64,000 nt of DNA from Onchidella celtica (taxonomy: Eukaryota > Mollusca > Gastropoda > Systellommatophora > Onchidiidae): positions 56,423,311-56,487,310 of the forward strand of contig OZ007571.1 in assembly GCA_963931925.1 (NCBI GenBank). The letters are read 5' to 3'. The number at the start of each line of letters is the position of its first letter. Position 1 is the stretch's first letter. The notes under the pieces were generated by a model that was given only the letters and a program-made list of their open reading frames with translations, was not told the origin of the DNA and did not search any database. Positions 9,501 through 53,315 of this stretch are shown piece after piece. A program made the translations under genes and the position numbers.

Positions 9501-12500
9501 GCGAATACAGAATGCAACAGACCAAAAACTTCGCGAGGAGCAAGCTGGTTTCAGGAGTAATCGATCAACCACCGACCAGATCGCCACGCTGAGAATCATA
9601 GTAGAGCAGTCGCTAGAGTGGAACTCCCAACTGATAGTGAACTTCCTTGACTACGAGAAGGCCTTTGATAGCATCGATAGAGAAACACTGTGGAGAATAT
9701 TGAGACATTATGGAATCCCAGAGAAGATGGTGAATCTTATCAAGAGCATGTACGAGGGGACAAGTTGCAGAGTCGTACATGATGGTGAGCTTACTGACAG
9801 CTTTGATATCAAGACTGGTGTTAGGCAGGGTTGTTTGCTGTCCCCATTTCTGTTTATCCTGGTGATTGATTGGCTTATGAAAGAAACCACCAGTGGAGGA
9901 AGAAATGGCATACAATGGACCCCATGGACACAGCTGGACGATCTAGATTTTGCAGATGACTTGGCACTATTGTCGCACACACACGACCAGATGCAAGCAA
10001 AGACTACAGCTCTAAACAAAATTTCAGAATCTATTGGATTGAGGATACATCCCGCGAAGTCGAAGGTCCTAAAAATTGTTGCACCCCTAAGCGAACAAGT
10101 CACAGTAGGAGATCAACCACTGGAAGATGTAGAGTCCTTCTGCTATCTTGGTAGTATCATTGACAATAAGGGAGGAACAGAGGCAGAAGTCAAAGCACGA
10201 ATTGGAAAGGCACAGGCAGCTTTCACATCCTTAAGCAAGATTTGGAGAACCAAGGATATATCTCTAAAAACAAAGCTGAGGATATTCAACTCGAACGTGA
10301 AGTCAGTCCTGTTGTATGGATGTGAGACTTGGAATGCGTCCCAGGCCTGCATAAAGAGAATCCAAGTTTTCATCAACAGATGTTTGAGGAAGCTACTTAA
10401 GATCAGATGGACAGACAAGGTCAGCAATGAAATTGTATGGAAAAGAACAAGACAGAACCCAGTCAGAGAGGAAATTGGTAGGAGGCGATGGAGATGGATC
10501 GGCCACACTCTCAGGAGGCCAGGAAACAGCATCACGAAGAAGGTATTGGACTGGAATCCCCAGGGCAAGAGATCAAGAGGAAGGCCGCGCGGAACGTGGA
10601 GAAGAGCCAGAGAAAATGATGTGCAACGAAGCGGAAAGACTTGGAATAATGTAAAGAGGCTGGCCCATGATAGAGAGGGATGGAAGGTGTTTGTTGGTGG
10701 CCTATACCCTGATCCAGGGTGAGAAAGGCAATGATGATGATGATGATGAATTACAACATGCTCTACAGGGGCCAGCATCATCTACATGAATTCTAGAAAT
10801 TCTACAGAATTTTTTAGTAACATACCATGTCAATCCACAACACATTCCAGTTCCACCTTCACAAACCATGGAACCAACCAACTGATCCATTCCACTGGGA
10901 TGCAAGCATCAGTCATCAAATGAGAAATGTTTGAATTCCACTGTAAGCCCCTAAAGCATAACTTCAGGTGTACGCTTAATGCACAAGTTAGTCAGCACAA
11001 TACATACTATGCTCATTCATAAACCACACAGAACCAGCGAGATTCATCTTGACACACTGCAGCATTGCATGACCCAATGATCCTTCACTCACTTTCTAGT
11101 TTTTATAATTATATGTTATTCTGTTGGCATGGCCAACATAATGAAAATAGAGTACTACTAGATCTAAAACTGCAGATCAACCAGAACACAACAATATGGT
11201 AAACCATAGTAACTTTATTGTACACACTATCAGTGCCAAAGGGAGACAACAATACAGTTCATCTCCCATGCTCTCATGATTGTGTTTCGTTTCTTTTGAA
11301 ATAACTGGGTTGTTTTTTTTAAAACAACAATTTTCTGGCATCCTTCCTGACACCCAAATATAAATATGGGATTGGGATAGTCCCATAAAATATTGGATGG
11401 TTGGCAGATCTGTATGTAAGTGTCGCAGTATCATTTCTACAGAGTGTATCAATCATAAAAGGTTCACTACTGTTTACGGTTACCTTTGGTGATTTGCTGC
11501 CTGGCACGGCGGTGACCAAATGACTCAAAAATACCCCCAGAGGAATCTGTTTGGACCACGTAGATACCATCATATGCCTGTTGATTCTGTGGCTCCAAGA
11601 CATCCGGATGCACAGCAGCCAAAATAAGTATTCCAAGAAAAAGAATGTGCAGGAGCTATAGGACAAAGGAAAAGAGTAAAAAACAAACTATGGAATTAAG
11701 TTCTTTCAGTCACATTTCATATAATTTATGCATAATATGAGGAAATCTTTGAAATGATAAAAGCTAAGAACTATAGAGTCACAGTTATTAGAGCTACTAC
11801 AACAGCATTAAAATGAGGTTTACCCTTCCACATAATAATAGTCAGTTTTGTCTTGTTGTATAAACATTGGAAGAATCCAGCTGCAATGAAATTTCCCCCA
11901 ACATGAATAACTTAAACCTCTCAGACTACTGATGTCATGCGCAAAAATGTTGAAAAAATGCTTTCTGTTTTAAGAATTTAAGATTATAAGAATTTAATTT
12001 AAGAATTACAATTTCCATCTGTGTGACTAGGGTCTAGATCAATGTTCAGCATGAATTTTCATGAAAACAAATCTTTAAATTAATCCTTCCAGTATTTGGG
12101 CCATTACATAGGCCTATCGTGGGTTTTTCCACTGCTAAGACCACAGTATCATAGTTCTCTCTTCCCGGACCCCAGCTGCTAAACCCATGACATCATGATT
12201 GCCCCTCCCTTGTCCACCAATGATATTACTTATTAGGCCACAAATTCATGTTATCACCTCAGGGCTTTGTTGATTTGATTGATGTGTCCACGATATCATA
12301 TAAATTTGTACATCGGGAGGTCTTCCGCCCGTCCGCGCCATAATTTTTACCGCTATTATTAATAAGTAAAGCTCACGGTTACACACTGTTCCAGACCTTA
12401 TGACCAATTATCATTTCATATTCACAATAACATTTGTAACACAGTACACACTGGCCAAGAAAGACAGTACAATCCCAGAAGAGTCTGAAGTGAGACAAAA

Positions 12501-30510: not shown

Positions 30511-33500
30511 CCCTATATTTCTTCTTCTTCTTCTTTCGTTCACCAATCTAAATCTGCAGATTTGTTCTTTTAATAAAATCTACGGTTTTCTGCAGTTCTG
30601 GCAGAGCACCATAGAGTTTGATATTCAGGTCGGTGGGTTGGGGCCAATATGTTTCTCGCAGTGCTGAGAGGAGTGTGCAGTTCTGCAATATATGCTCCGT
30701 GTTTTGAGGAGACTGGCTGCACTCGCATATGGCAGATGTTCCTATTTTGAACTTGGTGAACATGTGGTGGTGGAGCCTATTGTGACCAGTTCTTAGTCTG
30801 AACAATAGTACTTGATCCTCTCTGTTCAGGAGATGATATTTATCCTGTTGGTTTATTTGCTGCCATCTGTTGTTTTTGATGAGGTTTTTCTTCTCATAGT
30901 AGTTTAGGAGGCACTGTGGCTGCTCCAGGCCGGAGCCCTCCTTGGCCAGTTGGTCTGCCTTCTCATTGCCTGGGACTCCACAATGTGATGGTATCCACTG
31001 TAGGACTATCCTGCTTCTATTTCCAAGCTGTGTAAAACATTTCTTCAGGTCGTTAAGCTTGCCAGCTTGAAGGGCCTCAAGGACTGATCTTGCATCTGTG
31101 AGGAAGACGATGTTGCTGTCCTCTACTTGAAGCTCTGTGGCAGCTGTCATGAGGGCTTTGGCTTCTGATCCATAATTATTGCAGAAGGTTCCGGTTGGCA
31201 TGCTAATTGCCGTTCTTGTCGAGTCTGGATACTCTATATACACTCCGGCACCTCCATTTGTTACAGCATTCTCAGCAGAGCCATCTGTGTAGACTCGAAC
31301 CCATGATTCGCTTGGATACTTGTCATCAAGTAGGCCGAGTACAGCAGTTCTTCTTTCTACTTCACTTTGTTCTCCCTTGTTGAAGACACCATCAACGTCT
31401 GTGTGTATCTGGACTTGGGTCTCTGTCTCCTCCGTCCAAGGGGTCTGTTCAGGTACAGATGTCAGGGGGTGGGCAATCTGGGGAAGGTGTGATAGCTGTC
31501 TTCTTATTCGCTTTGCCTTGTGAATAAAGCTCGTACGTTTCAGCCTTCCCCTTGCCAGGTCGCCTAGCTTCTCTTTCATTGGGTGATTCTCTATGCTGTT
31601 GAATTTCTCTGCCTGGATTGCCACCCTGGTTTCTCTTTGTTCTGCAAGTGTTGCTATCTGGGTGATCTTCTCCATCTCCACAATGGGTGTTGTCTTCATT
31701 GCTCCTGTGATGATGCGCAAAGCCTGGTTCTGAACTTTGTCTAACATCTGAAGGACTGAGTTGGACGCTGAACTCCAGGCTGTTGAACCATATTCGAGGT
31801 GAGGGCGAATCCCTTGCTGATACACATTCTTGAGAATTCTTTCTGTCGCTCCCCATGATGTGCCGCTCAGTTTCCTCAATATGGCTAGCTTTCTTCTAGC
31901 TTTTGTCTCTGCCCTCTCGATGTGATTCCTCCATGAGAGCCTGGTGTCGAATGTGACTCCTAGATAGGTTGGTGCTTTGTCTTCCTTGAGTGATGTCCCA
32001 TTGAGCTTGATGGCTCCAGCAGTCTGTTTTGGAGACAGAGTGAAAAGAGTAGTGGACGACTTCTCTTCGTTGACTGTGACACACCACTTATTCGTCCATG
32101 CTAAGAGGATGTCAGTGGCTCTTTGTAGTCTTCTTGTGGCAACTGTGGCATGTTCTTCCGTACACCACATAACTAGGTCATCTGCATATAGAGCTGTACG
32201 TATTCCGCAGGGTAGTTCTTGAACTAGATCATTTATGAAGATCAGGAATAAGGTGGGTGATATTACTCCTCCCTGTGGCACACCGTGTCTCAGCAGTACC
32301 TTCTTGCTGTGACATCCATCCAGCTGGACTCTTGCTCTTCTGTTGTGTAGAAGGCTCTTGGTCCACTTGTACATGCTACCAGTCACTTTGTTGTCTCGCA
32401 GCTTCCTGAGTAGTCCGTCTTTCCAGACTTTGTCAAAGGCCTTTCGAAGGTCGATCCACACTGCTAATACTTGTTTCTTGTCCTGGAAGGCATCTTCAAT
32501 GTCCTGTGACAGATAGGTTGCTTGATCCTCTGTGGAATAACACTGACGGAACCCTGCTTGCTGATCAGCCAGTAGGTGGTTGCTTTCCAGGTACCACTTC
32601 ATTCTGTGGTTGACGATCCGTTCCATGGTCTTGCAGAGGCAGCTTGTCAAGCTTATTGGTCGATAGTTTCTTGCTGTTCCCTTGTCCTTTCCATTTTTGG
32701 GTATTGGGACCATGATTGCTTCTCGCCAGATCTGTGGTACTTCTCCAGTTTTCCAGCTGACGTTGAAGATCTCTAGTAATTTATTCAGAGCTCCGGATCC
32801 GAGTTTCTTGATCATCTCATTTGGTATTCCATCTGCACCTGGTGACTTCCGCAGTTTTAGTTTGCTAATGGCAAGGTCTAGTTCTTGCCGTGTGATCTTT
32901 GTGTTCATGACTTCTGGCTGGTCTCCTTCGTTTCTCTCCGGGGCCTTGTCATTTCTTGCCTCCTTTAACTTGCTTGTACTTACCTCTATGTTACAGTCCT
33001 TAGCAAACACATCTGCAAAAACATTCGCTGCTGTTTTCTTGGTTAGGGTCTTGCCATTCTCTTGCAAAGTGACTCTGATGTTACTATCTGTTCCTTCATC
33101 ATTTAGAGCTTTAACCAGGTTCCATAGTTTCCTGCCGTCTTTTTCAAAGTTGAGGGAGGCTGTTTTCTCTTTCCAGCTCTTGCGTCGTGCCTGGAGCTTT
33201 CCTCTTTGAAATCTTGCCTTGGCTTGCTGGAGGGCATTGTGTTGCTGTTGTCCTGGGTTGTTTTCAGACTGTATTCGTGCCTTTTCTACTTCTTGGTGGA
33301 GTTCGTCAAGATCCTTGTTCCAGTATGGTTTGTAGTTCTTTCGTGCTCCACGAGGTATTGTTTCCTTGGCAGCTTGAAGAATAGATGAGTTGAACTCTTG
33401 CACAATGGTGTTGATGTTTTTCCCTGTTGAAATTATACTTGTGGCAAGCACGCTTGTTCTGTGTCTGAACATCATCCAATTGGCCTTCTTGTAGTTCCAT

Positions 33501-34579
33501 CTGGCAAGGGTGCTGCTGCTCTTTATTAGCTCGTTTTCCACCATGATGAAAACAGGGCGATGGTCACTTCCTCCAAGTTGTTTCCCCACAGTCCTTTTGA
33601 TCTTCCAGTCCAGGTCTGGTGTATAGAAGGCTATATCCGGTGTGGAGGTGGTATGCCAGCATCTTGAGTAAAATGTAGGTGGGTCTGTGGGCTGATTTAT
33701 GAGAAGCAGTCCTAACTCATCCTGCCATGTTTCAACCTCCTCACCTCTCTTGTCCATGTGTTCATAGCCCCAGCTTTGGGAGTGGCTGTTGAAGTCTCCA
33801 CATGCTATTAGCCTACCTCTAAAGGGAATTGTATCCAGGGACATGGATCGGTCGTTTGGGCAGTAATAATTGAGGATGTGGAATTCCGTCTGATCTGTCC
33901 TGATGTGAAGTAGATGATATTCTGCTCCCTCCATTAGCACTTGAATCTGGCTTGCTCTGATGTTGTTTCTCACCAAGGTTAGAATTCCTCCTTTTCTTCT
34001 GTCTGTCCGGTCGTTTCTAAAGCACTGGTATCCTCTTACCTTGAAAGCAACGTCTTTGCTGAGGTGGGTTTCTTGGATGCAGCAGATACTTACTTTCTCC
34101 TCAAAAAGGATGTTTTCTAGCTCTAACTTCTTGCTGTATCCATCTTTCTTGCTGTTGACTCCTTCAGCATTCCAGTGCATTATCTTTAAAGGTTGCTCCT
34201 TATCTTTGATGGTTTGGCCAGTAGCATTCCTCTCCTGCCCCCCGGCTCCCCGGGGCAGTCGAGAGGGACCTCCAGTAGCTTGGGTGGGCCCCTTCGAGGC
34301 TGGGGGGCCCGGCACTGCCGCTGCCTGGGGGGACTTCACAGGGCGAGCACCATGACGATAACTAACTGCAGACTTAGACATAATAGTGAAAAGGGTGCGT
34401 GGTATCTAGGTTAGGCGCCCTACTCTGGCCAAATACCTCCGTCTTCAGCTTATTTTGCTAGAGCAGAGTTTGCTCATGCTCGGCGAGATGGCTCGGCCAC
34501 ATTTGTTTCACACCCCTGGTGGTGTTACTAAAGCCCCCTCACCGGCGGCAAGGAGTGACCTCGAGGGGGCCCTATATTT
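30511..34579 (-). mobile_element. I/Ingi-like non-LTR retrotransposon with 10-bp target duplication
   Basis: The element covers about 30521-34569 on the minus strand. CCCTATATTT occurs at both borders (30511-30520 and 34570-34579), and a following C also matches. It has a GC-rich 5' region of 188 bases, one long ORF, and a short 3' end with a (GAA)n tail at 30521-30535. Only one ORF is present; either the family has a single ORF, as Ingi elements do, or a first ORF was lost by 5' truncation. The GC content contrasts sharply with the surrounding AT-rich DNA. The target duplication and intact ORF point to recent insertion. Confidence 0.9.
30548..34381 (-). CDS. I/Ingi-like LINE polyprotein: endonuclease, reverse transcriptase, RNase H
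   Basis: An uninterrupted 1277-residue ORF with an ATG start at 34381. After a Pro/Ala-rich N-terminus comes an AP endonuclease (IMHWNAEGVNSK, IQETHL, ACGDFNSHS, GSDHRPVF). A reverse transcriptase follows (WIDLRKAFDKVW, GVPQGGVISPTLF, LYADDLVMW). Then comes an RNase H domain with its acidic residues (VYTDGSAENA, SEAKAL, LTDARSVLEAL, WIPSHCGVPGNEKADQLAK). The C-terminus has a cysteine/histidine stretch (CECSQSPQNTEHILQNC). Domain order and RNase H place it in the I superfamily; molluscan relatives such as nimbus are similar in plan. Every catalytic motif is intact. Confidence 0.92.
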   Translation of the reverse strand: MSKSAVSYRHGARPVKSPQAAAVPGPPASKGPTQATGGPSRLPRGAGGQERNATGQTIKDKEQPLKIMHWNAEGVNSKKDGYSKKLELENILFEEKVSICCIQETHLSKDVAFKVRGYQCFRNDRTDRRKGGILTLVRNNIRASQIQVLMEGAEYHLLHIRTDQTEFHILNYYCPNDRSMSLDTIPFRGRLIACGDFNSHSQSWGYEHMDKRGEEVETWQDELGLLLINQPTDPPTFYSRCWHTTSTPDIAFYTPDLDWKIKRTVGKQLGGSDHRPVFIMVENELIKSSSTLARWNYKKANWMMFRHRTSVLATSIISTGKNINTIVQEFNSSILQAAKETIPRGARKNYKPYWNKDLDELHQEVEKARIQSENNPGQQQHNALQQAKARFQRGKLQARRKSWKEKTASLNFEKDGRKLWNLVKALNDEGTDSNIRVTLQENGKTLTKKTAANVFADVFAKDCNIEVSTSKLKEARNDKAPERNEGDQPEVMNTKITRQELDLAISKLKLRKSPGADGIPNEMIKKLGSGALNKLLEIFNVSWKTGEVPQIWREAIMVPIPKNGKDKGTARNYRPISLTSCLCKTMERIVNHRMKWYLESNHLLADQQAGFRQCYSTEDQATYLSQDIEDAFQDKKQVLAVWIDLRKAFDKVWKDGLLRKLRDNKVTGSMYKWTKSLLHNRRARVQLDGCHSKKVLLRHGVPQGGVISPTLFLIFINDLVQELPCGIRTALYADDLVMWCTEEHATVATRRLQRATDILLAWTNKWCVTVNEEKSSTTLFTLSPKQTAGAIKLNGTSLKEDKAPTYLGVTFDTRLSWRNHIERAETKARRKLAILRKLSGTSWGATERILKNVYQQGIRPHLEYGSTAWSSASNSVLQMLDKVQNQALRIITGAMKTTPIVEMEKITQIATLAEQRETRVAIQAEKFNSIENHPMKEKLGDLARGRLKRTSFIHKAKRIRRQLSHLPQIAHPLTSVPEQTPWTEETETQVQIHTDVDGVFNKGEQSEVERRTAVLGLLDDKYPSESWVRVYTDGSAENAVTNGGAGVYIEYPDSTRTAISMPTGTFCNNYGSEAKALMTAATELQVEDSNIVFLTDARSVLEALQAGKLNDLKKCFTQLGNRSRIVLQWIPSHCGVPGNEKADQLAKEGSGLEQPQCLLNYYEKKNLIKNNRWQQINQQDKYHLLNREDQVLLFRLRTGHNRLHHHMFTKFKIGTSAICECSQSPQNTEHILQNCTLLSALRETYWPQPTDLNIKLYGALPELQKTVDFIKRTNLQI

Positions 34580-36995: not shown

Positions 36996-38092
36996 TGATG
37001 GTACCTAAACCCTTATTCCTCATGCAGTCTGCCTCTGGCCAACTGGCACATCATTTTCAAAATTCTCTATATTTCATAGAGGTGAAATAAGAGGACACAA
37101 CATATCATTATCACTGAAACACTTCACATTGGAGCTACTTTTGGCAAGCAATGAAAAGAAAATGAAGCACCAAAATGTACATTTGCAACAAAAAAAAACC
37201 AACAATAAAAACTGCACCACTTTAGCAGGGCAACACAGCAGATGATAGACACACAACTCAGAAATAAAAGGAGCAAGATGACATGAGAGTATCTCAAAAA
37301 TGAAAACAGAACCAATGCAAAATTTTGTGTAAAGGTGTAAAAACTAGTGATCAGTTACTAGTATGCAGATCAACATAATATTATGTACTAAAATCTCTTA
37401 ATTTTACGCATCCAGAAACTTAATACATATATGTATCACATACCAGTAGATGAAATTGACTTTGACATTTCACAACTTTCAATGTATGAGAAAAAGAAGA
37501 GAAAAAAAAACTGCTGTACATTTGCATATAATAATATCACATTTAATTTTCACACTTAAGTTCTCTTGAGTACATTTAGAAAACAGAAAACCTTGTGGGT
37601 GGCAATTTCTGCCTCCTCCAAACTGAAATAAAATTCATGATTATAAAGATCCATCTAAATTCAAAGATTATTTTCAGAATTATTGAGCCTTAAACCAACA
37701 AAAATTTTAATATACTTGTTTCACATTGGCAAGTAATTTCAGAAGGACAATTGTCCTATGGTCACAAATTTTTCTGTGCCATGGAAAGGCACTGCAAATA
37801 ATGATTAAAATGTTTGTAGTTTGCTTTTCATGCCAAAAGTTTAAGTTCGGCTACGACATCAGGAAATTTTCACCATTTATTTATTTATTTATTTTATCAG
37901 ACAAATACATACAAACAACCTAAGTCCTCAAGTGAGTAAGGTAATCATCTTCTTGGATAAGGAAAGTAAATTCAAATGTGCATAACATTCAAAAGATCAC
38001 CATAGAACTGGAAATCTGTACAAGCTCGGCCAGTCCAGGCAACTCCCCTTGAAAAATTTTGACCAGATATTGTAAGCTGAATATGGCCACAT
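36996..38092. other. Intergenic spacer; no gene supported
   Basis: AT-rich. A weak exon-like stretch on the minus strand near 37560-37620 (acceptor TTTATTTCAG followed by an open frame) could not be linked to any gene. Confidence 0.4.
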
Positions 38093-38097
38093 GAGGT

Positions 38098-38242
38098 TGT
38101 GATGTAAAGCCAATCTGGCATGTTACAATTTATGTATTCGGACATTATGGTTAAACAAGAATAAACCTGGCAGTTAGCCAACGACCATGGCGGCCTTCGT
38201 GTCGAGTGTTTTCTATAAGAACCTGTTCAACTAAATATTACA
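38098..38242 (+). repeat. Left LTR (145 bp)
   Basis: Starts TGTGATGTAAAG and ends AATATTACA. An AATAAA motif at 38160-38165 could serve as poly(A) signal. Same length as the right LTR. Confidence 0.93.
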
Positions 38243-38260
38243 TGGTGTCAGAAGTGGGAT
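38243..38260 (+). promoter_or_regulatory. Primer-binding site, tRNA-Leu-like
   Basis: TGGTGTCAGAAGTGGGAT directly follows the left LTR. It is complementary to the 3' end of a tRNA ending ...CTGACACCA, as animal tRNA-Leu does, which would prime minus-strand synthesis. Confidence 0.85.
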
Positions 38261-38382
38261 CGCAAAAGAAAATAAGTTCGACACAAGTTAGATCTACTAC
38301 CCTGATCCTCAAATAAATACAGCTGACATTTTAGTCGGTATTATAGACTCAGATCTAAAGATCGAGGTAAGCAAAATACACG

Positions 38383-39261
38383 ATGACAGAATCAAATTCC
38401 AGAAGATTCACAGCAAATTTGCCCCCACCATCCAAATTAGACTTCTCTAACCAAGCAGAGCTTCACCAGAACTGGGTAAAATTCAAAAGGCAATGGCAAA
38501 ATTACCAAATCGCTTCAAGGTTGAGAGAGGAACCGATGGAATTCAGAGTCGCTGTATTCATGACTTGTATAGGTGATGAGGCATTAGATGCCCTGGATGG
38601 CATGAGGCTATCAGATGAGGAAAGGTCGGACTTAGATCAAGTCATTAAATATTTCAATAACTTTTGCATTGGAGAAATAAACGAGACATTTGAGTCTTAC
38701 ATATTTCATCAAAGAAACCAAAAAGAACACGAAACCATAGACTGTTACGTAACAGAGTTGCGCCAGCTTGCCAGGCGGTGTAATTTTAAAGAGGAAGATA
38801 GGATGCTTAGGGACAGAATTGTAATAGGGATTCACAATGACAGGATTAGAGAGAAGTTATTAGAAAGGAAGAAGTTGTCACTGAGTGAGGCTCTTGACAT
38901 ATGCAGAGCGCAGGAAAATGCAAAAACACAACTACAGGCAATGGGAAAAGAGTCCCAGGTTAATAAAGTTTCACAGCATAAAAGCACAAGCTACAACCAA
39001 AATTATCACAGATCTAATCTACTCACACAGAAACTGTGTGGGAGATGTGGATATCAACATGGATTAGGAGCGCGTTGTCCAGCGAGAGATTCAGTGTGCC
39101 ACTCGTGTAGAAAAAAAGGGCACTTTGCCAAAGTGTGTAAAAATCCAAATACCAGCTTTAAGAAACCTCGAAATAGCAAAGTGAATGTTCTTGAAGAAGA
39201 AGAAGAGGAAGAAGAATATTTAGAAGGATATTTAGGAGCAATATTTAGAACCAAAGAGAAA
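38383..39261 (+). CDS. gag: LTR retrotransposon Gag (3' end split off by LINE insertion)
   Basis: The ATG at 38383 opens a frame that runs to the LINE boundary at 39261 (about 293 Gag residues); the same frame continues by chance into the LINE and stops at 39420. The first 190 residues form a helical capsid-like domain (FKRQWQNYQIASRL and similar). Two zinc-knuckle-like clusters follow: CGRCGYQHGLGARC and the canonical CHSCRKKGHFAKVC, a CCHC nucleic-acid-binding motif. An acidic run of glutamates (residues 267-276) precedes the break. The frame resumes after the LINE at 43372 into protease. Confidence 0.88.
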
Positions 39262-39557
39262 CAGTTGTTAGGATCAGTCAGTGGAACCAAAGACACAGTG
39301 TATGACACAGTGCGCCGGTTGGCAGCCTTTTTGTGCTCTGCATTTTATTACTTGTTGTTCCTGATCAACATCGGCTTTCTTTTGGATTTTTATACCAGCA
39401 TGTTTATTAGGTTTCAGTGAATTCATGTGTGAAAAAATATTGTGAAAATTATGAAATTGAAGTCAGAAATTCTCAGATCAATTTTAAGCTCTTCAAGTTG
39501 GAATAATTTCCACCATTGTGCTTGTGTTATTCTTGGCCTGTCACTACTCATGGCTAG

Positions 39558-39907
39558 TACAGGGGACAAGGTGGTCTAGAGGCAAGGTGCTCGCCTCTCG
39601 TGCCAAGGGTCCCGGGTTCGAAACCCGGGCCGTGCAGGCATGTTGGAAGTTTGGGATTTTTCTCATATTTTCGTGTCCCTGATTCTATTGAGGGGTAGGA
39701 TCGAGTACCTAGTCTTCTCGGATAAGGACGAAAAAATTCGGAGGGCCCGTGTGCACGTTGCGCACGTTAAAGATACCTTGGCAGTTGGAAATCGTAAAGA
39801 GCAGGCCGAACAGGCCGCTGCCCGGGCAAAATTAAATTAAATTCATCTCTACCAGTCCCTCCCCCTCCCCCCTCATCTCCCCCCCCCCCAAAAAAAAAAA
39901 AAAAACG
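39558..39907 (+). repeat. tRNA-derived SINE-like segment in the 5' region of the L2 LINE
   Basis: The head at 39567-39638 has a Pol III A box (GTGGTCTAGAGG) and a near-perfect B box (GGTTCGAAACC) inside a strong T-arm (CCCGGGTTCGAAACCCGGG), giving a tRNA-like fold. It continues with a body containing GTGCACGTTGCGCACGTTAAAG and ends in C(10)A(17) at 39881-39905. No target duplication was found, so it may be a nested SINE or a captured Pol III promoter region of the LINE. Confidence 0.75.
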
Positions 39908-39989
39908 CCGACCGGCGCTGCACTGTGGCGACGACGTGCCTGCTCCAGTTATAACTGGGCTGCAATGGCACAAAGGCAAAATTTCCCAA

Positions 39990-42900
39990 ATGGGATTAAA
40001 GAGTTATACAAATACAAATACAAATACAGGTAACATTGTTTTGACAAGTGAACACTTACACACTGAGACCGGTGTGCACACTGATGTGCTTGATGAAGTG
40101 AATATGAACACCTTCAGTCAACAACTGTGTAATCCCACAATGGCCTATTCAAGAGACCAGCTGTGTGCTTTAAGACCCTTGAACACAGCAATTGTACCAC
40201 CTAGTGTAATGCATAGATTAAGAAACAACAAAATTAACTTAATACCAGCAACCAAACGCTCAAGAAGGGGAGGCAAACAGAGAATTAAAGTAAACATCAC
40301 CAGTAGACATGGTTGTCTCCCTGAATATAGACAAGTATGCAAAGCAAATTTAATCAAAGTGGACACTGATGATGTAGAACGTGACCAGTGCAGTAACATC
40401 AGAGTTGGTTATTTAAATGCTCAGTCATCTAGAAATAAAACTGAAGACATTGTGGACCTCATTCACGAAAAGAATCTAGATTTACTGTTTATCGTTGAAA
40501 CATGGTTAGTGAAAGAGCGTGATGCTATTATTGAAGATGAACTGACACCTCCTAATTTCAAAATTAAATCTTTTCCTCGGAAAAATCGTCTTGGAGGCGG
40601 GATCGCTGTAATTTTCAGAAAATCACTTGAACCAAAAATTGTTATTAAACCGGAAACTAGCTACCAACCTGAAACATTTGAGATTATGGAGCTATCATTA
40701 GATCTTGGCACCAAAGTCTTTCATTTTGTCTGCATTTATCGAGCGTCAGGCAGTAAAACCAATTTTCTGAGTGAACTTGAAGTTCTCCTACCACGCTTAA
40801 CCTGCGAGAAAGGATACCCGGTTCTTTTGGGTGATCTTAATTTTCATTTTGATTCTAAAACATCATCTGAAGTAAAACGACTTAAAGAACTTATCGACCA
40901 ATGCAACATGTCTCAGATAATCAAATGTCCAACTCATCGAGCTGGTCACATCTTAGATTTAGTGATCATCAAACAAACCTTGAGCACCTTCACCAACACC
41001 GCCGTCCTAGAAAAACTCATTTCGGATCATAAAACCATCGTACTCGATATTGATTTCGCAAAGCCAAATATCATCAAAAAAGTTGTGTCGTCCAGAGACA
41101 TAAAAGGTATCGACATCAATGCCTTCAAGACGGAAATGGCCAATGCTCTCGAGAACTTTGAAGGCGACATCACATCTTATAATAACATCCAGCAAGATCT
41201 ACTACAGCGACATGCACCTATCAAGACCAGGTCAATCTCCAACAGACCGTTCGCTCCATGGTACACCCTAGATGTCAAAGCAGCCAAAGCAGAATGTCGC
41301 AAAGCAGAAAGGAAATGGTTAAAGACAGGTCTTACAGTCCACAAGGACATTTTCAAACACCAGAAGAACAAATGGAAATGTGTTATTAAACTTGCAAAAA
41401 AAGACTTCTATGTCACTAAACTTCAAAATTCTACATCTTGTAAGGAACTTTTTAGTATTTGTGATGAACTCACAGGGAAAAGAAAGGAAACACCTCTACC
41501 CACAATTTACGAGAACAATTTGTTGCCCAATGTTTTTGCTGATTATTTTGATAAAAAAGTTACAACTATCCGAGAAAATCTTGACAGTTTTGATGCCATT
41601 GATCATTTTGATGAGTTTCAGGGAAATCCTATAGACACTTTTGGTGTTGTGTCGAATGAATCTGTAAAATCTATCATCATGGCATCGCCATCAAAATGTT
41701 GTGACCTCGATCCTATTCCTACATTTTTGGTTAGATCTTGTATTGATGAACTGGTTCCAACTATTACAAAAATAATAAACAACTCTATTTTAAGTGGGTC
41801 TGTCCCTGATTATTTTAAAACAGCCTGGGTAACACCACTTTTGAAAAAAACGACTCTTGATCAAAACATGTTGAAAAATTATAGACCCGTCTCAAACCTT
41901 CCTTTTCTTTCAAAAATCCTTGAAAAGGTGATATTACAACAACTAATGTGTCATTTGAGAAATAATGACCTGTTGGAACCATTTCAATCTGCTTACAGAA
42001 GTAACCACAGTACTGAAACTGCACTATTAAGAATCATGAATGACATATTAGTAAAGGCAGATTCTGGAAATATTACTCTGCTAAATTTGTTGGATCTATC
42101 AGCAGCGTTCGACACCATCGATCACGAAATCCTGCTCAGAAGGCTAGAAACATCGTTTGGAATCAGAGGGGTCGCCCTTAAATGGGTCGAATCTTACCTG
42201 TCAAATCGCCACCAATTTGTTGTAACCAACAAAATAAGATCTTTTTCTTATGCGCTTCAGTATGGCGTACCACAAGGCTCAGTGCTTGGTGCTATTTTGT
42301 TTACTATCTATACTATTCCACTTGTACATGAAATAAAGAAATTTAATTTACAATATCATTTCTATGCTGATGATACCCAGCTCTACAGTTCTGCCTTGCC
42401 ATGCGATGTTGACAGCCTTCTGCAGCAGGCTGGAAACTGTATAACAGAAATTAAAAGCTGGATGAACCAAAACAAACTGGCACTAAATGAGGATAAAACT
42501 GAGGTTATTTTATTAGGCCGTGAGCGGGTTCTGCAAGAAGTGGACAGAACTGAGATGATAATTGGCACTAATTCAATAGAAATTTCAAAAAAAGTAAAAA
42601 ACCTAGGGGTTTACATTGATTCAAATCTTTCTATGTCGTCTCAGGTTAGTCACCTCATTCGTATTCTATACATGGAAATCTGGAAAATTGGTAAAATCAG
42701 ACATCTTATTTCAACTGAAACTGCGGCTGTTTTAGTAAATTCTTTTGTACTTTCAAAGCTTGACTATTGCAACTCCCTTTTGGCTGGAATTTCACAAAAA
42801 AATATTAGAAAACTCCAAATTGCTCAAAACAATGCAGCGAGACTTGTTTTGAAGAAAAAGAAAAGAGATTCAGCACTGCCACTTCTGCAGAGTTTGCACT

Positions 42901-43205
42901 GGCTGCCAGTCGAGAAAAGAATAATGTACAAATTGTCATCCATTTGTCACAAATGTGTCAATAATACTGCTCCATCGTACCTAGTTGATTTAACTGATTA
43001 CTATGTTCCATCTCGTCAACTAAGATCATCATCTGACACTACAAAATTGAAAGTACCTAAAATGAATCTGTCCACTGTAGGAGAAAAGTCCTTTTCATTT
43101 CTTGGCCCTACCATCTGGAACACTCTTCCAAAGACAACCAGGGAAATTAATGACATTGGTTCTTTCAAACGCCATCTGAAGACCCATTTCTTTCAGACAA
43201 ACTAG
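39990..43205 (+). CDS. L2-type LINE polyprotein (AP endonuclease and reverse transcriptase)
   Basis: Uninterrupted frame of 1071 residues from the first ATG at 39990; it is open a further 18 codons upstream from a GTG. The N-terminal 110 residues are of unknown function. The endonuclease shows VGYLNAQSSRNK, FIVETWL, LLGDLNFHFD and ISDHKTIV. The reverse transcriptase shows LLDLSAAFDTIDH, GVPQGSVLGAILF and YHFYADDTQLY. The C-terminus has the L2/CR1-type block SFLGPTIWNTLPKTTRE followed by SFKRHLKTHFF. No RNase H domain is present. All catalytic motifs are intact, so the copy may be competent. It lies in the same orientation as the LTR element. Confidence 0.92.
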   Translation: MGLKSYTNTNTNTGNIVLTSEHLHTETGVHTDVLDEVNMNTFSQQLCNPTMAYSRDQLCALRPLNTAIVPPSVMHRLRNNKINLIPATKRSRRGGKQRIKVNITSRHGCLPEYRQVCKANLIKVDTDDVERDQCSNIRVGYLNAQSSRNKTEDIVDLIHEKNLDLLFIVETWLVKERDAIIEDELTPPNFKIKSFPRKNRLGGGIAVIFRKSLEPKIVIKPETSYQPETFEIMELSLDLGTKVFHFVCIYRASGSKTNFLSELEVLLPRLTCEKGYPVLLGDLNFHFDSKTSSEVKRLKELIDQCNMSQIIKCPTHRAGHILDLVIIKQTLSTFTNTAVLEKLISDHKTIVLDIDFAKPNIIKKVVSSRDIKGIDINAFKTEMANALENFEGDITSYNNIQQDLLQRHAPIKTRSISNRPFAPWYTLDVKAAKAECRKAERKWLKTGLTVHKDIFKHQKNKWKCVIKLAKKDFYVTKLQNSTSCKELFSICDELTGKRKETPLPTIYENNLLPNVFADYFDKKVTTIRENLDSFDAIDHFDEFQGNPIDTFGVVSNESVKSIIMASPSKCCDLDPIPTFLVRSCIDELVPTITKIINNSILSGSVPDYFKTAWVTPLLKKTTLDQNMLKNYRPVSNLPFLSKILEKVILQQLMCHLRNNDLLEPFQSAYRSNHSTETALLRIMNDILVKADSGNITLLNLLDLSAAFDTIDHEILLRRLETSFGIRGVALKWVESYLSNRHQFVVTNKIRSFSYALQYGVPQGSVLGAILFTIYTIPLVHEIKKFNLQYHFYADDTQLYSSALPCDVDSLLQQAGNCITEIKSWMNQNKLALNEDKTEVILLGRERVLQEVDRTEMIIGTNSIEISKKVKNLGVYIDSNLSMSSQVSHLIRILYMEIWKIGKIRHLISTETAAVLVNSFVLSKLDYCNSLLAGISQKNIRKLQIAQNNAARLVLKKKKRDSALPLLQSLHWLPVEKRIMYKLSSICHKCVNNTAPSYLVDLTDYYVPSRQLRSSSDTTKLKVPKMNLSTVGEKSFSFLGPTIWNTLPKTTREINDIGSFKRHLKTHFFQTN

Positions 43206-43371
43206 GCTAGGTGTTTTTTGGCAGCAACAATAGTAAATATTTTTGAATTTCTTTTGTGTATGCGTGTGTGTGTGTGTGTGTGTAAGAGTTTGTTAAAGCG
43301 CCCAGAGCTTGTCATCGACGGGGTTGGGCGCTATATAAATGCAATATATTATTATTATTATTAAAGAGAAA

Positions 43372-43470
43372 AACCCATGGCAAGTGAAGGTCACAGTGAA
43401 TGGAAAAAAAATTGACTTTAGGATCGACACAGGTGCAGATGAAACTGTCATACAAAAAAATTTGAGCTTT
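43372..43470 (+). pseudogene. Truncated LTR-element protease
   Basis: The reading frame of Gag resumes after the LINE's target duplication and reaches an aspartic-protease active site (RIDTGADETVI). It then breaks off near 43455-43475, where the sequence jumps into integrase in a different frame. Reverse transcriptase and RNase H, which should lie between, are absent. Confidence 0.8.
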
Positions 43471-43472
43471 CG

Positions 43473-44705
43473 GTGGTCCTTGGATTATTACTTTACAACA
43501 CAAGAATGGTGATTCCTGCATCAATGCAAAATGAAATTTTGCAAAGAATACACGAGGGTCATCAAGGAATCGTCAAATCACGCGCTTTTGCCAGGTCTTC
43601 AGTATGGTGGCCAGGAATCTCAAACCAAATTGAGGATATAATTCAAAAATGTTCGATCTGTGAAAAACACACACTGCTCTCACCTGAACCCTTGAAACCA
43701 ACTGCTACACCAGACTACCCTTGGCAGCAAGTTGCAATGGATCTTTTCCAATGGAAGGGACATGATTATCTGTTGACAGTTGATTATTTTTCCAGGTGGA
43801 TAGAGATAGTTTTACTCAGAAAAACGACCTCAGCTAGTGTAGTCGAACATTCAAAGTCTATATTTGCAAGGTATGGTATACCAGAGACAGTAATAAGTGA
43901 CAATGGACCACAATTTGCTTCATTCGAATTTGCAAACCTTGCAGAGACTTATGGTTTTGAACACAAAACGAGTAGCCCAAAACACCCGCAAGGTAACGGA
44001 GAAGCGGAGAGAGCAGTACAAACAATCAAAAACCTTCTCTGGAAAGCAGATAATCTTTACGTCGCCATTCTCAACTATCGAGCAACACCATTAAAACAAG
44101 GAAGAAGTCCTGCTGAACTTCTACAAGGAAGGCAGTTGAGAACCAAATTACCAAATCTGCCATCCCAACTGAAACCTAAAGAACTAAACCTAAAGAAATT
44201 GCATTCAGCAGATGAATATCAGAAGGAACAACAAAAGTACTATTTTGATAAAAGGCATGGCGGAAAAAGACATGAGCATTTCGAACAAAACGATACTGTC
44301 TGGATTACAAAACCAAAATTTGAAAAAGCAGTAATCCTTGAATCATTTCAACCTCAGAGTCAGAGAGCAGATGTGCACGAGAGGTCTTATCTCGTCAAAA
44401 CTCATACAGCCACTAAAAGACGAAACAGACTACATCTGCGTAGGCGAACATTCGCTCCGTATGATGAAGGGATATCAACACCAGGAGCTACGTCATTAAT
44501 TCCGACTCCCAGAGACATGTCCAACCGAGCAAATGACAGACACTCCATGGATAATGACGTGGATGGTATTGAGACACCGTTGCCTGAGACTGCATCAAAT
44601 GGTGCTAAGCCACCTCCACAACACAACCGTGGTCAGCCAACGCAGTCACATTACACATCACGCAGCTGCCGTGTGATCAAACCTCCACAAAAGTTCACAC
44701 TGTAA
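43473..44705 (+). CDS. LTR-element integrase (headless pol fragment)
   Basis: Open frame of about 410 codons with no natural start, beginning right after the deletion junction. It has the zinc-binding H-x3-H...C-x2-C region (EGHQGIVKSRAF, CSICEKH). The catalytic core D-D-E follows: VAMDLFQWKG, ISDNGPQF and then the E within GNGEAERAVQ. A basic C-terminal region ends in SCRVIKPPQKFTL. The GPY/F-like part is weak. The enzyme inserts element DNA into the genome. It could not be expressed as a normal Gag-Pol product because of the frame change. Confidence 0.85.
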   Translation: MVLGLLLYNTRMVIPASMQNEILQRIHEGHQGIVKSRAFARSSVWWPGISNQIEDIIQKCSICEKHTLLSPEPLKPTATPDYPWQQVAMDLFQWKGHDYLLTVDYFSRWIEIVLLRKTTSASVVEHSKSIFARYGIPETVISDNGPQFASFEFANLAETYGFEHKTSSPKHPQGNGEAERAVQTIKNLLWKADNLYVAILNYRATPLKQGRSPAELLQGRQLRTKLPNLPSQLKPKELNLKKLHSADEYQKEQQKYYFDKRHGGKRHEHFEQNDTVWITKPKFEKAVILESFQPQSQRADVHERSYLVKTHTATKRRNRLHLRRRTFAPYDEGISTPGATSLIPTPRDMSNRANDRHSMDNDVDGIETPLPETASNGAKPPPQHNRGQPTQSHYTSRSCRVIKPPQKFTL

Positions 44706-45099
44706 TGCTGGTGTCCTACAGTCGCAAACCTTTTTATGGAGCACATTTAATATATTGTGACATTTTGGACATTTCTTTATATCTTAAGACAGTTAAGTAG
44801 TTGCTGATAATATGATTGTGTCATTGTGTGTCGGCAGTCTTCCGGGATAGAAATAGACGAAGTGTGTGGAGGGATGGAATGAATGAGAGAATGTTTCATT
44901 ATGTGTATAATCTCTAGTATTAATTTTAATCTATTTGATTAATGTCCACAAATTACTTTCATTTTTGTTCACACTTTGAAGTTCGAGGAACAGTTTAAAA
45001 AAAATTAAGTTTGAGGAACTGATATCGCTATCTTCGTAATTTTGAATTCTGAAACTAAAAGACATTTGTTTGTGTTGTAGAAAACTCAAGAAAGAGAGA
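44706..45099 (+). other. 3' untranslated region of the LTR element with polypurine tract
   Basis: Non-coding, ending with AAGAAAGAGAGA at 45088-45099 directly before the right LTR, the expected plus-strand primer. Confidence 0.65.
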
Positions 45100-45244
45100 T
45101 GTGATGTAAAGCCAATCTGGCATGTTACAATTTATGTATTCGGACATTATGGTTAAACAAGAATAAACCTGGCAGTTAGCCAACGATCATGGCGGCCTTC
45201 GTGTAGAGTGTTTTCTATAAGAACCTGTTCAACTAAATAATACA
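45100..45244 (+). repeat. Right LTR (145 bp)
   Basis: About 98 percent identical to the left LTR, by my own count three substitutions. Followed by GAGGT, the second copy of the target duplication. Confidence 0.93.
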
Positions 45245-45329
45245 GAGGTGACTTTGATTAAGAATAATAAAACTGACTTATATATAGAGAGAGAATAAAT
45301 GATAATTGCAATGTCAGCACTAATGAATT

Positions 45330-46400
45330 TTGTTTATTTACTGCTCTTGTTAGTCAAAAAGACAAACAAATAAAGCCAAAATCTATCAGATGTGCCATTA
45401 TTTTAGAGTGACAAAAAACAACATTACAGTAGTGGACTCAAACCTGAAAATAAATCATGAAATTGTTTTGGATGAAATGCACTTGAAATGAGTGTCACAT
45501 TTTATTTGATATCAGCCATTTCATGAACAGCAAGCCAGGGCCACAGCACTGACAGCTGTTACTTAATGGTATAGAATATATTATCCACATATAATCTTGG
45601 ACAGCAGTTCATGGCACAAAATCAGTTATGATGGCAAGAAAAGTGTATCAAACTCAACATTCAGCCATCCCAGCTTTATGATTTTCCACTGATTTATCTG
45701 CAGTATGAGAAAGAATAAATTGTCTAGATGCTAAAAAAATAGTCATAATTTACTTGAGATAGCTTCAGATAATCACCTTTCACAGACAATGTGACACATT
45801 TGAACAAATGAGCCATTTCTTCTCAAGCTATACGTATTAATATTATCACAGGTTTGAGTATTTCTAAGTATGAATTTGAGTTTGGGTTTAACGATGCATC
45901 AGCATGCTAATGGCCACTTTGTGGCTTTCATGCTTTTTTCATTATCTAACTTTGAAGCAGCTTTTTTAGTATTATTAGATGTATGCTAGTTCTTAATTTA
46001 TGTTTCAAGGTAATGCACTTTTGATATAGGCCTACATGTATAAAGAGTCGTTATACATTATGAAAATAAATCTACATTAAACATTTTGACTGTATTTTTA
46101 GTGCATTATCAAACTTCATATCTGCAAGGATGTTTCTCCTCCTCTGGTTGGTGGACACCAAAAAATGAATAAAATTTTCACACCACACAAGACAGGTGGC
46201 ATCAATAACAAATTTTCCTGCACTTTTATAAGACTGAGCTCATAATTTGTCTGTCCTGACAACATAAAAAACCAACACCTCTGACCTATTTGTAAAATCT
46301 AACTACCTTTCTTTGCCTCTTTTCTTGAGATCAAGAAAATATACAAGTTCAAACAGAAATGCCTGATTTGAATTTGTTCAAATTCTTTTTTTTTTTACAA
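45330..46400 (-). other. Probable 3' UTR of the TTLL gene
   Basis: Non-coding sequence downstream of the TTLL stop at 46401. AATAAA motifs on the minus strand at 45506-45501 and 45338-45333 are candidate poly(A) signals, just short of the LTR element. Confidence 0.45.
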
Positions 46401-49400
46401 TCAATAGCACCATCCAGCATCAAGGCGACATTTACCAACAAACCAGAGATATATGAATTTGTTCATGAAATTGAGATTTTTGTTCACAAGTAAATCAGAT
46501 TTGGGTGTCCATGCTAATGCATCTTCTTGTGAAATTGAAGGTGGGAATATGCGACGAGCTGTTCCCCTCCAAGTATGCTCTAAGTATGCCAGTTTTAATT
46601 CATTACGCAAATCTTCTGTCAGACATTTACTGCAGAGCTTACAAACTAATGAATTACAATCACTCAAACACAGCTTTGTCCTACAGTAATCAGGGAACAC
46701 TTGAATATCATTTGGTGAAACCAACATTTCTTCTTCAAAAGCTGGAGTTTTTTTCCTCGATGTTGACGTAAAATGCCCTACACCAACCAAACTTAACAAA
46801 TTGAATAAAACATGCTCATACAAACGTGCATTTTCCTTGAAGTGGTCGGACGAGAGATTTGGGGACATGTTGCCTTCCATCAAAAACACATTCATATTTT
46901 CATCTACGACAAAGTCAAAGCGTATCAGTTCAAAGAAGTTTCTCTTTGAGGGATACTTGTGTACTGATCTGATCAGTTCGGGTTCCTTTGTTAAAATCAC
47001 AGTTCGAATGGCTGATTTGACTTTTTTCCACAGGGTGGTGGGATCTTTTCCCACAGTTTTTAAATACTCATTAAAAGACTCTTTAAATGTGTAACCTTTT
47101 TCTGTGTGCAAATGTTTCAGTGATGGTACATTCCACAATGGCAGATACTCATCCCCAACTACATATTTATCTAGAAGAGTGCTATCAAATGGGTAATACT
47201 TCAAAGGGCAGAACCTGAAGAGAGCTTCACCATCAATAACATACACGCGTAAAGGATTAATTGATGTGATAATTGTGTAAATGCCAATATCAAACTTATG
47301 CCCATCTATAAGATATGGCCTTGAAATAAACTCTTGGACAAAAGTTTCACCCTTAGTCAGATCTAAATCTTTAGTTTTCTTAACTTTTATTCCTCTGTGC
47401 ATGTTGTTCTTTTGCACCCAACTAATGTTTTTATGCTTCTCTGCATATTCCAAAAATTCTTTCTTCCTTGATGGAATTTCAAATGCCTTGGGAATAAAAT
47501 CCAACTTTGTCTGTGCCAAACTGACTTTATTGGTAATGAATCCTGACCCAGGGAAATGGTTGATCCTCTGATAGGGTTTGAGGGTTGCCATGGTGTTTCG
47601 CAATGTAACGAATGGATAGTCATGAATCCATCCAACAACCCAATCTGACAATTTCTCTCCAACAGTAAATCCCATCTTGTCAAACACATTATACACATGT
47701 TTGAGGTATCCATTTGGACCGTTATTCTTTGATTTGGGACTTCCTTCAATCCAAACGATAGGAGATGCACCTGCAGGGTACGTATGGTCGCTACCTTGTG
47801 CCTCTATCACTGGCAGTTTGGCCAGTTCATTTTGATGTATCCTGTAAAAAACAAAGGAAAGTCAGTAATATATCTGTTACACTAATACTAATAAATATAA
47901 GGCAATGTCCACTAATAAAAGATTAATATTATTAAAACCACAGAAAATCTGTGGGGTCCCATCAAAGCTTTGAAGCAAAGTCAAAATATGGCAAAAAGAA
48001 AAAGCTGTATATAGCAAAACCTCGCATAAGAAAAAATAATACCAAAACAATACAATAAAACACAAAGGAAAAGGGAAGACAAATTAAGTTCAGCATTAAA
48101 ACCTTCATTAGGAAAAAATAAAGGGTTGGAAAATTGAACCAACAAAACAATTATTATTATTATTTTATATAGCACATATCCATTTTTAAAATGCTCTATG
48201 CGCTTTACAGAAGAAACCTGTCAACCACAGAGAAGAATGGAGCACCGGCGAAGCGCTCAACACACTACACTGCTGCTTTCTCTCTCCCTGTCTCGCTCAC
48301 TCTCTCTCTCTCTATCTCAGAGCAAATTGTACCGCAGCCTGTTAGGCACAGTTCACAACTCACAACAGTTCACAACTCACAACACAAATAATATTATAAT
48401 TACACAATGAAAAAGATGTAGAACATTAAATATTAAATCAATATGACCCCTTACCCGCTCAGAGAGAGAGATTAAGAGAGAAAGAGAGGGAGAGAGAGAG
48501 AGAAAGGAGAGAGAGAGAGAAAGAGAGAGAGGAGAGAAAGAGAGAGAGAGGAATATCAACTTGCTACTTAATATGATTCCTGTGTTTTGAGTGTCTCCAT
48601 GATGAGAAACAATCATCAGGACTATTCTGTTGTGCGAAGGCAAAGTGACATATGTGCTCATTTTATAATTTTGAGAAAAACACAAAAAACTTGTGTGGCA
48701 TAGCCAGCCTACACAAATGCTTTTATTTTGAGTATGCCACATTAGACACTACTATTTCGGGAGCAGAAACATCTATCTGCCTTTGACATAAAAGAATTAT
48801 GAGTGAGACAAATTCACATTATATATCTAGGCCAGGGGTGCTCAACCAGTCGATCGCGATCTACCGGTCGATCTTCAAGTGCTTGGCAGTCGATCGCGGG
48901 ATGAATGTAGGACACACCCGCGAGGTATATAATATATATATTTACCTAAGGTAAAAATGTGTTATTAAAATAAAATATGTTTTGGTTCACTGCATTTTGT
49001 ATCTAAGATTCTAAGTTGTATGTTAAAGTGAATAATGCCGATAGGCACACCAGCATAGGTTCGGTTTCTTTTATCTTTTGTTTCAGGGCTTCGCCAGACT
49101 GGTGGATCTCCAAAGGCTGGGAAATGTAAAAGTAGATCCTATGTCAGTTAAGGTTGAGCACCCCTGATCTAGACAATAAAGTAGAAAAGGCCATGTTATC
49201 AGTTACGTTGTTCTGCCTTTGCACAGCAGTGTTCATGAGCCTTCTAAAGCTGAATTTCCTTAAAACATTTATCAATGATTTTCTCCAAATACTACAGGCA
49301 TGTAAGGGTAAATCTAATACATTATCATTACCAGATACTATATTAGTACAGTACTGAGTAGAGAACCATATCATTGTGAAACTCACTCATGATCTTCCTT

Positions 49401-52703: not shown

Positions 52704-53052
52704 TTCTACAGTTAAACTTTAAGCTCTGAATACGAAACAAATTTATACATGTATAAAGAACTATGTACCCGAACAGACCGTGAAAGGTGCAAAGTGGCCG
52801 TTATCGTGCCGACGCGCCGTAAAATCCAAACTCATAACTCAAACACACCTGTTCTCCCACCCCAACCCTTGTTCTGTTTATCCTGCCAATCGCGACTCAC
52901 ACCGATTCAGGTCTATGCTTATGTTCGGACTTTCATACTGTGCGCTTCTTCACCAAGACAAAAGATACTAGATGTAATAGTAACTAATATAGATCTAGTA
53001 GTATATCTTTCGCATGACTGCGAGCATCTCTTAATAATATTCGCCGTCATCT

Positions 53053-53315
53053 ATCCGTTTTAACCGTTCAGTAGTGTATATCTATGGTTTTAACCGTTCA
53101 GTAGTGTATATATCTATGGTTTTAACCGTGCAGTAGTGTATATCTATGGTTTTAACCGTGCAGTAGTGTATATCTATGGTTTTAACCGTTCAGTAGTGTA
53201 TAATATCTATGGTTTTAACCGTGCAGTAGTGTATATCTATGGTTTTAACCGTTCAGTCGTGTATATCTATGGTTTTAACCGTTCAGTAGTGTATATATGG
53301 TTTTAACCAACTGGT
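53053..53315. repeat. Minisatellite, about 8 units of about 30 bp
   Basis: Eight occurrences of the word CAGT(A/C)GTGTATA at 29-33-bp spacing (starting near 53069, 53098, 53131, 53161, 53191, 53224, 53254 and 53284), each preceded by GGTTTTAACCG(T/G). Variants in TG/TT and TATATATC length show separate unit histories. GGTTTTAACC within each unit is palindromic-like (GGTT...AACC). Confidence 0.92.

Follow-up and report, generated by a model that had tools for sequence, protein, structure and literature searches.

The window analyzed here is a stretch of 64,000 nucleotides of the Onchidella celtica genome (C5:56423311-56487310), which was compared with the whole 1.14-Gb assembly of 43 contigs; by the search tool's own statement, the counts obtained from this assembly are lower bounds. 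From the sequence and from copies elsewhere in the assembly, three levels of retroelements can be recognized: a Ty3/Gypsy-type LTR element, a LINE inside it and, inside the LINE, a 461-bp SINE with a tRNA-like head. The window also holds long open frames of two other LINEs, one at 7588-10722 on the plus strand (endonuclease and RT by Pfam) and one at 30548-34405 on the minus strand (endonuclease, RT and RNase H by Pfam). A reading frame of the tubulin-tyrosine-ligase family (46401-47861, minus strand; Pfam) lies about 1.2 kb past the 3' LTR, and a minisatellite of about 8.5 copies of a 30-bp unit is found at 53049-53308.

The three elements

The LTR element spans 38098-45244 and is flanked by the target-site duplication GAGGT (38093-38097 and 45245-45249), as had been noted in a preliminary description made from the letters alone. 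Its 5' LTR (38098-38242, plus strand) is 145 bp long with TG...CA ends and agrees with the 3' LTR (45100-45244, plus strand) at 142 of 145 positions, with three substitutions, which matches the earlier figure of about 98 percent. The 5' LTR is directly followed by an 18-nt stretch that resembles a primer-binding site (38243-38260, plus strand), and a polypurine tract precedes the 3' LTR (45088-45099, plus strand). The same 18-nt stretch follows the LTR of a related copy on C1, and its start follows the 5' LTR of the copy on C8. A complementary 15-base pattern is found at 682 + 594 places in the assembly (0 + 0 for the reversed control) and repeats 11 times with a 127-bp spacing at C1:38634193-38635477; ARAGORN gave no tRNA in the single 521-base stretch tested, taken from the start of this array.

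The gag open frame (38383-39293, plus strand) shows two CCHC-like motifs by eye, has no Pfam match and stops at the LINE. On the other side of the LINE a protease fragment with a DTGA motif (43363-43462, plus strand) resumes the gag frame at 43363, so the recovery of the frame across the LINE, already described, is real; the C8 piece that overlaps this fragment matches PF00077. The integrase open frame (43464-44705, plus strand), with H2C2 and rve domains by Pfam, lies in a frame that differs from that of the protease fragment.

For the LINE (39294-43362, plus strand), "L2" is the label of the preliminary description. It has a 5' start near 39299, shared with its copies, and an ATT-repeat 3' tail, and it contains an ORF free of stops (40140-43205, plus strand, the start being approximate). 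Two pieces of this ORF match PF03372, PF14529 and PF00078 in Pfam, which places endonuclease and RT in one ORF.

The SINE (39564-40024, plus strand) has a tRNA-Glu-like head (39566-39636) and a tail of ACAAAT repeats. It is flanked by the 6-bp target-site duplication TACAGG (39558-39563 and 40025-40030), which was absent from the preliminary description. With its tRNA-like head, repeat tail, target duplication and many dispersed copies it is a tRNA-derived SINE; Rfam gave no matches at gathering score in 38000-45500.

Order of insertion

The order LTR element, LINE, SINE follows from the nesting itself and is backed by uninterrupted sites, present in the same assembly, at the two inner levels; the three-level nest proposed earlier is thus borne out together with its order. 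For the LTR element itself no empty site turned up at a paralogous locus of the assembly; its two flanks, when joined, matched nothing beyond the places from which they had been taken.

The LINE target is uninterrupted in all four other LTR-element copies that hold this stretch, one on C8 and three on C18, which amount to two independent insertions, the three C18 copies being segmental duplicates. By these uninterrupted sites the LINE duplication is AAAGA (39289-39293 and 43363-43367) and not AAAGAGAAA, as had been read from the window. In the uninterrupted copies gag contains the motif AAAGAGAAA at two places spaced 36 bp apart, the second of which received the LINE; what had been taken for the left copy of a duplication, at 39253, is the first motif and plain gag sequence. 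The start of the LINE, formerly put at 39262, lies at 39294-39299. A target duplication read off one copy may mislead if the target itself carries a repeated motif.

For the LINE family, 20 loci (one of them the window) were fetched from 40 scored among 155 first-look candidates. In the 19 other copies the match starts at window positions 39289 to 39299, and 3' ends were found for 15 of 18, the duplications there being inspected by eye. Between AAAGA and the shared LINE start the window has five extra bases, CACAG; short extras before the LINE are also seen in L059 and L076, among nine siblings whose letters were compared. The closest of the 19 siblings shows 3 differences over 1,490 sites, and the LINE family is recently active.

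None of the 19 other LINE copies contains the SINE; in each of them the match passes from 39563 to 40025, with a six-base overlap that corresponds to one TACAGG. This single TACAGG was seen directly in eight of the nine siblings with letters compared, the ninth (L075) being missed by the search word. The possibility that the SINE is a built-in part of the LINE 5' region was rejected on the same 19 copies. The first 281 bp of the SINE are identical at 40 places including the window, which are all of the 40 scored out of 1,990 first-look candidates, and the last 179 bp at five places, again including the window, of 40 scored for that part. The full 461 bp are identical in L078, the one other full copy compared. 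The SINE is recently mobile.

The divergences follow the order of the nest, with 3/145 for the LTR pair, 3/1,490 for the LINE and its nearest sibling and 0/461 for the SINE. In percent, the LTRs differ by 2.1 (95 percent interval 0.4-6.05) and the LINE differs from the nearest of the 19 sampled siblings by 0.20 (0.04-0.59), the SINE being compared with one full copy; as the LINE and SINE figures are sibling distances picked among best matches and not insertion ages, this agreement is supportive only.

The missing RT segment

At least eight loci of the LTR family were found: the window, C8, C1, C4, C11 and three on C18. At least seven matches were obtained with the LTR probe, two in the window and two on C8 (the LTR pair in each case) and single ones on C1, C4 and C11; the gag probe gave at least five (window, C8 and the three on C18). 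The integrase probe gave at least 34. Six of these, in the window, on C8, on C1 and in the three C18 copies, reach at least 95 percent; the other 28 match at 66-76 percent and are taken for other families. With the RT segment of C8 as the probe at least 38 matches were obtained: C8 itself, 32 matches at 64-71 percent and, within the three C18 copies, five pieces at 86-97 percent.

The C8 copy has both LTRs, the duplication GAAAG and an LTR-LTR divergence of 3/141 plus a 4-bp gap, similar to the 3/145 of the window. Pieces of it match Pfam protease (PF00077), RT (PF00078) and RNase H (PF17919/PF17917), all located before the stretch homologous to the window integrase. It is structurally complete with broken frames: gag carries indels, the integrase part a stop, and its two long frames, which overlap, are out of phase with each other. 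The three C18 copies end at the same edges, have the same flanks and show 95-98 percent similarity wherever the aligned stretch exceeds 1 kb; they are segmental duplicates of one truncated copy. In C18a an insertion of about 1.0 kb lies in the RT region (L048 6278-7278), with TG...CA ends and the 5-bp duplication ATGAC, similar to a solo LTR.

The jump from protease to integrase that had been noted in the window is confirmed by the comparison with C8. Between positions 43462 and 43463 (plus strand) the window lacks 1,793 bp which in C8 hold the rest of the protease, RT and RNase H, and the junction leads to a point just before the integrase domains. Since 1,793 is not divisible by three and the frames on the two sides differ, the junction does not make a protein fusion. 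Two routes to it were rejected. The absent segment starts with GT and ends with CA in C8, so it is no GT-AG intron and was not spliced out. Microhomology-mediated deletion does not fit either, as the breakpoints share no base; among words of 5 to 9 bp looked for within 30 bp of the two C8 breakpoints, none longer than 5 bp is shared, and that one is out of register. A junction of this kind favors no particular deletion route.

The search for further copies of the junction, proposed in the preliminary description, does not bear out a deleted subfamily moved in trans. A 121-bp junction probe gave nine matches, of which one, the window, spans the junction; the other eight represent four loci, each with one left and one right half. 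The 25-base junction with up to three mismatches occurs once in the 1.14 Gb (the reversed control gave 0). Four other loci have both sides of the breakpoint and can be scored, and all of them keep sequence there: C8 1,793 bp, C18b 1,813 bp, C18a 792 + 1,024 bp, which flank its insertion, and C18c 644 bp; C1, C4 and C11 are without one side of the breakpoint or both and cannot be scored. Of the RT-RNase H segment, C18c is missing 1,119 bp that C18a and C18b both hold, and its deletion therefore came after insertion and duplication. With 644 bp kept at the breakpoint, C18c became nearly RT-less via breakpoints other than those of the window.

Of the two options once offered for the missing RT, a one-off deletion is thus retained, with a time after insertion as the likelier, and the deleted subfamily is not supported. 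The junction occurs once and the relatives keep the segment, which argues for a one-off event, and on the sequences compared RT loss is most likely such a deletion rather than the mark of a trans-mobilized deleted subfamily. The account that we consider probable is one of layered insertion and ordinary decay, with the RT segment lost once, after the LTR element had inserted. A member of a small Ty3/Gypsy-type family integrated and left the GAGGT duplication. The LINE then entered between the parts coding for gag and protease, with target-primed reverse transcription as the presumed route and AAAGA as the duplication, and the SINE came last, into the LINE 5' region, with the TACAGG duplication. 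Separately, the LTR copy lost 1,793 bp in one blunt, frame-shifting deletion that is seen in no other copy of the assembly.

We infer that this deletion took place at the DNA level after the insertion of the LTR element, because C18c lost its segment in place and because the window junction bears no mark of a reverse-transcription error. Several observations count against this account. The gag and integrase frames of the window copy have no stop or frameshift, while in the pieces compared C8 has both and each C18 copy one or the other; there is thus no sign that the deletion is old. In the same gag and integrase pieces the window alone has 13 nonsynonymous and 8 synonymous changes; these are too few to tell neutrality from constraint (the probability of 13 or fewer under neutrality is 0.08 to 0.20, depending on the transition weight). 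Another is the C1 copy (L047 2870-3800), whose LTR comes closer than any other found to the 5' LTR of the window (3/145, against 6 for C4, 9 for the 5' LTR of C8 and 10 in 117 for C11). C1 is RT-less: its deletion, which contains 10 bp of filler, begins at the last base of the 18-nt stretch resembling a primer-binding site, extends to 44042 and covers the position of the window junction; no 3' LTR match was found within the 6.5 kb fetched. Descent of both copies from an RT-less parent is therefore conceivable, though improbable.

The main rival hypothesis is that a one-off deletion preceded the insertion: RT and RNase H would have been lost in a replication cycle and the defective cDNA integrated by the enzymes of an intact relative. 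LTR elements are generally known to suffer deletions while they are reverse-transcribed, and the open frames that remain in the window are in keeping with such a course. The C1 deletion, beginning as it does at the end of the primer-binding-site-like stretch and containing filler, suggests an aberrant strand transfer, and the C1 copy may be an aberrant reverse-transcription product. The window junction, however, shows no positive mark of such a loss, and C18c exemplifies a large deletion within this segment that occurred in place in a member of the family; we regard loss before insertion as rather unlikely, though worth keeping in mind.

C1 may or may not share a post-deletion ancestry with the window copy. 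It is improbable that the element was RT-less at insertion and was mobilized more than once by an intact relative, C1 being a further-deleted descendant of a common RT-less parent. About as improbable is a deleted, trans-mobilized subfamily that bears the window junction itself. C1, a close LTR relative that is also RT-less, speaks for it in so far as its larger deletion covers the junction, but the C1 LTR is as near to C4 as to the window (3/145 each). Such a subfamily would appear as several loci with the same internal structure; the junction was found once, C1 could not be scored, and the four scorable loci hold the sequence of the missing segment. Finally, an assembly error at 43462/43463 would account for a unique, blunt junction known from assembled sequence alone, but it deserves hardly any weight, given that both sides lie within one LTR pair and one GAGGT duplication and that the C8 breakpoints share so short a word, out of register.

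Comparison with known elements

The locus provides a worked case of three layers, two of which have uninterrupted sites in their own genome. The nested retroelements here are ordinary, and the RT loss looks like ordinary decay and not like a hitch-hiker family; the case lends no support to trans-mobilization of a deleted subfamily.

The LTR element resembles the Ty3/Gypsy LTR retrotransposons in its two short LTRs with TG...CA ends, its 5-bp target duplication, its integrase with H2C2 and rve and, in the C8 relative, the order PR-RT-RNase H-IN; the window copy differs in having neither RT nor RNase H. Within this group we suspect that it belongs to the Mag lineage. TRIM and LARD are non-autonomous LTR elements that keep the LTR ends, lack the polymerase genes and form multi-copy families of common structure. 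The window copy is like them in retaining its LTR ends without RT and RNase H, and unlike them in that its structure was found once. The LINE shares with L2-type LINEs, the label given to it earlier, the endonuclease and RT in one ORF, the ATT-repeat tail and the short duplication. The SINE, with its tRNA-like head and a length of a few hundred bp, is comparable to tRNA-derived SINEs of molluscs such as Nin-SINE (PMC11121367).
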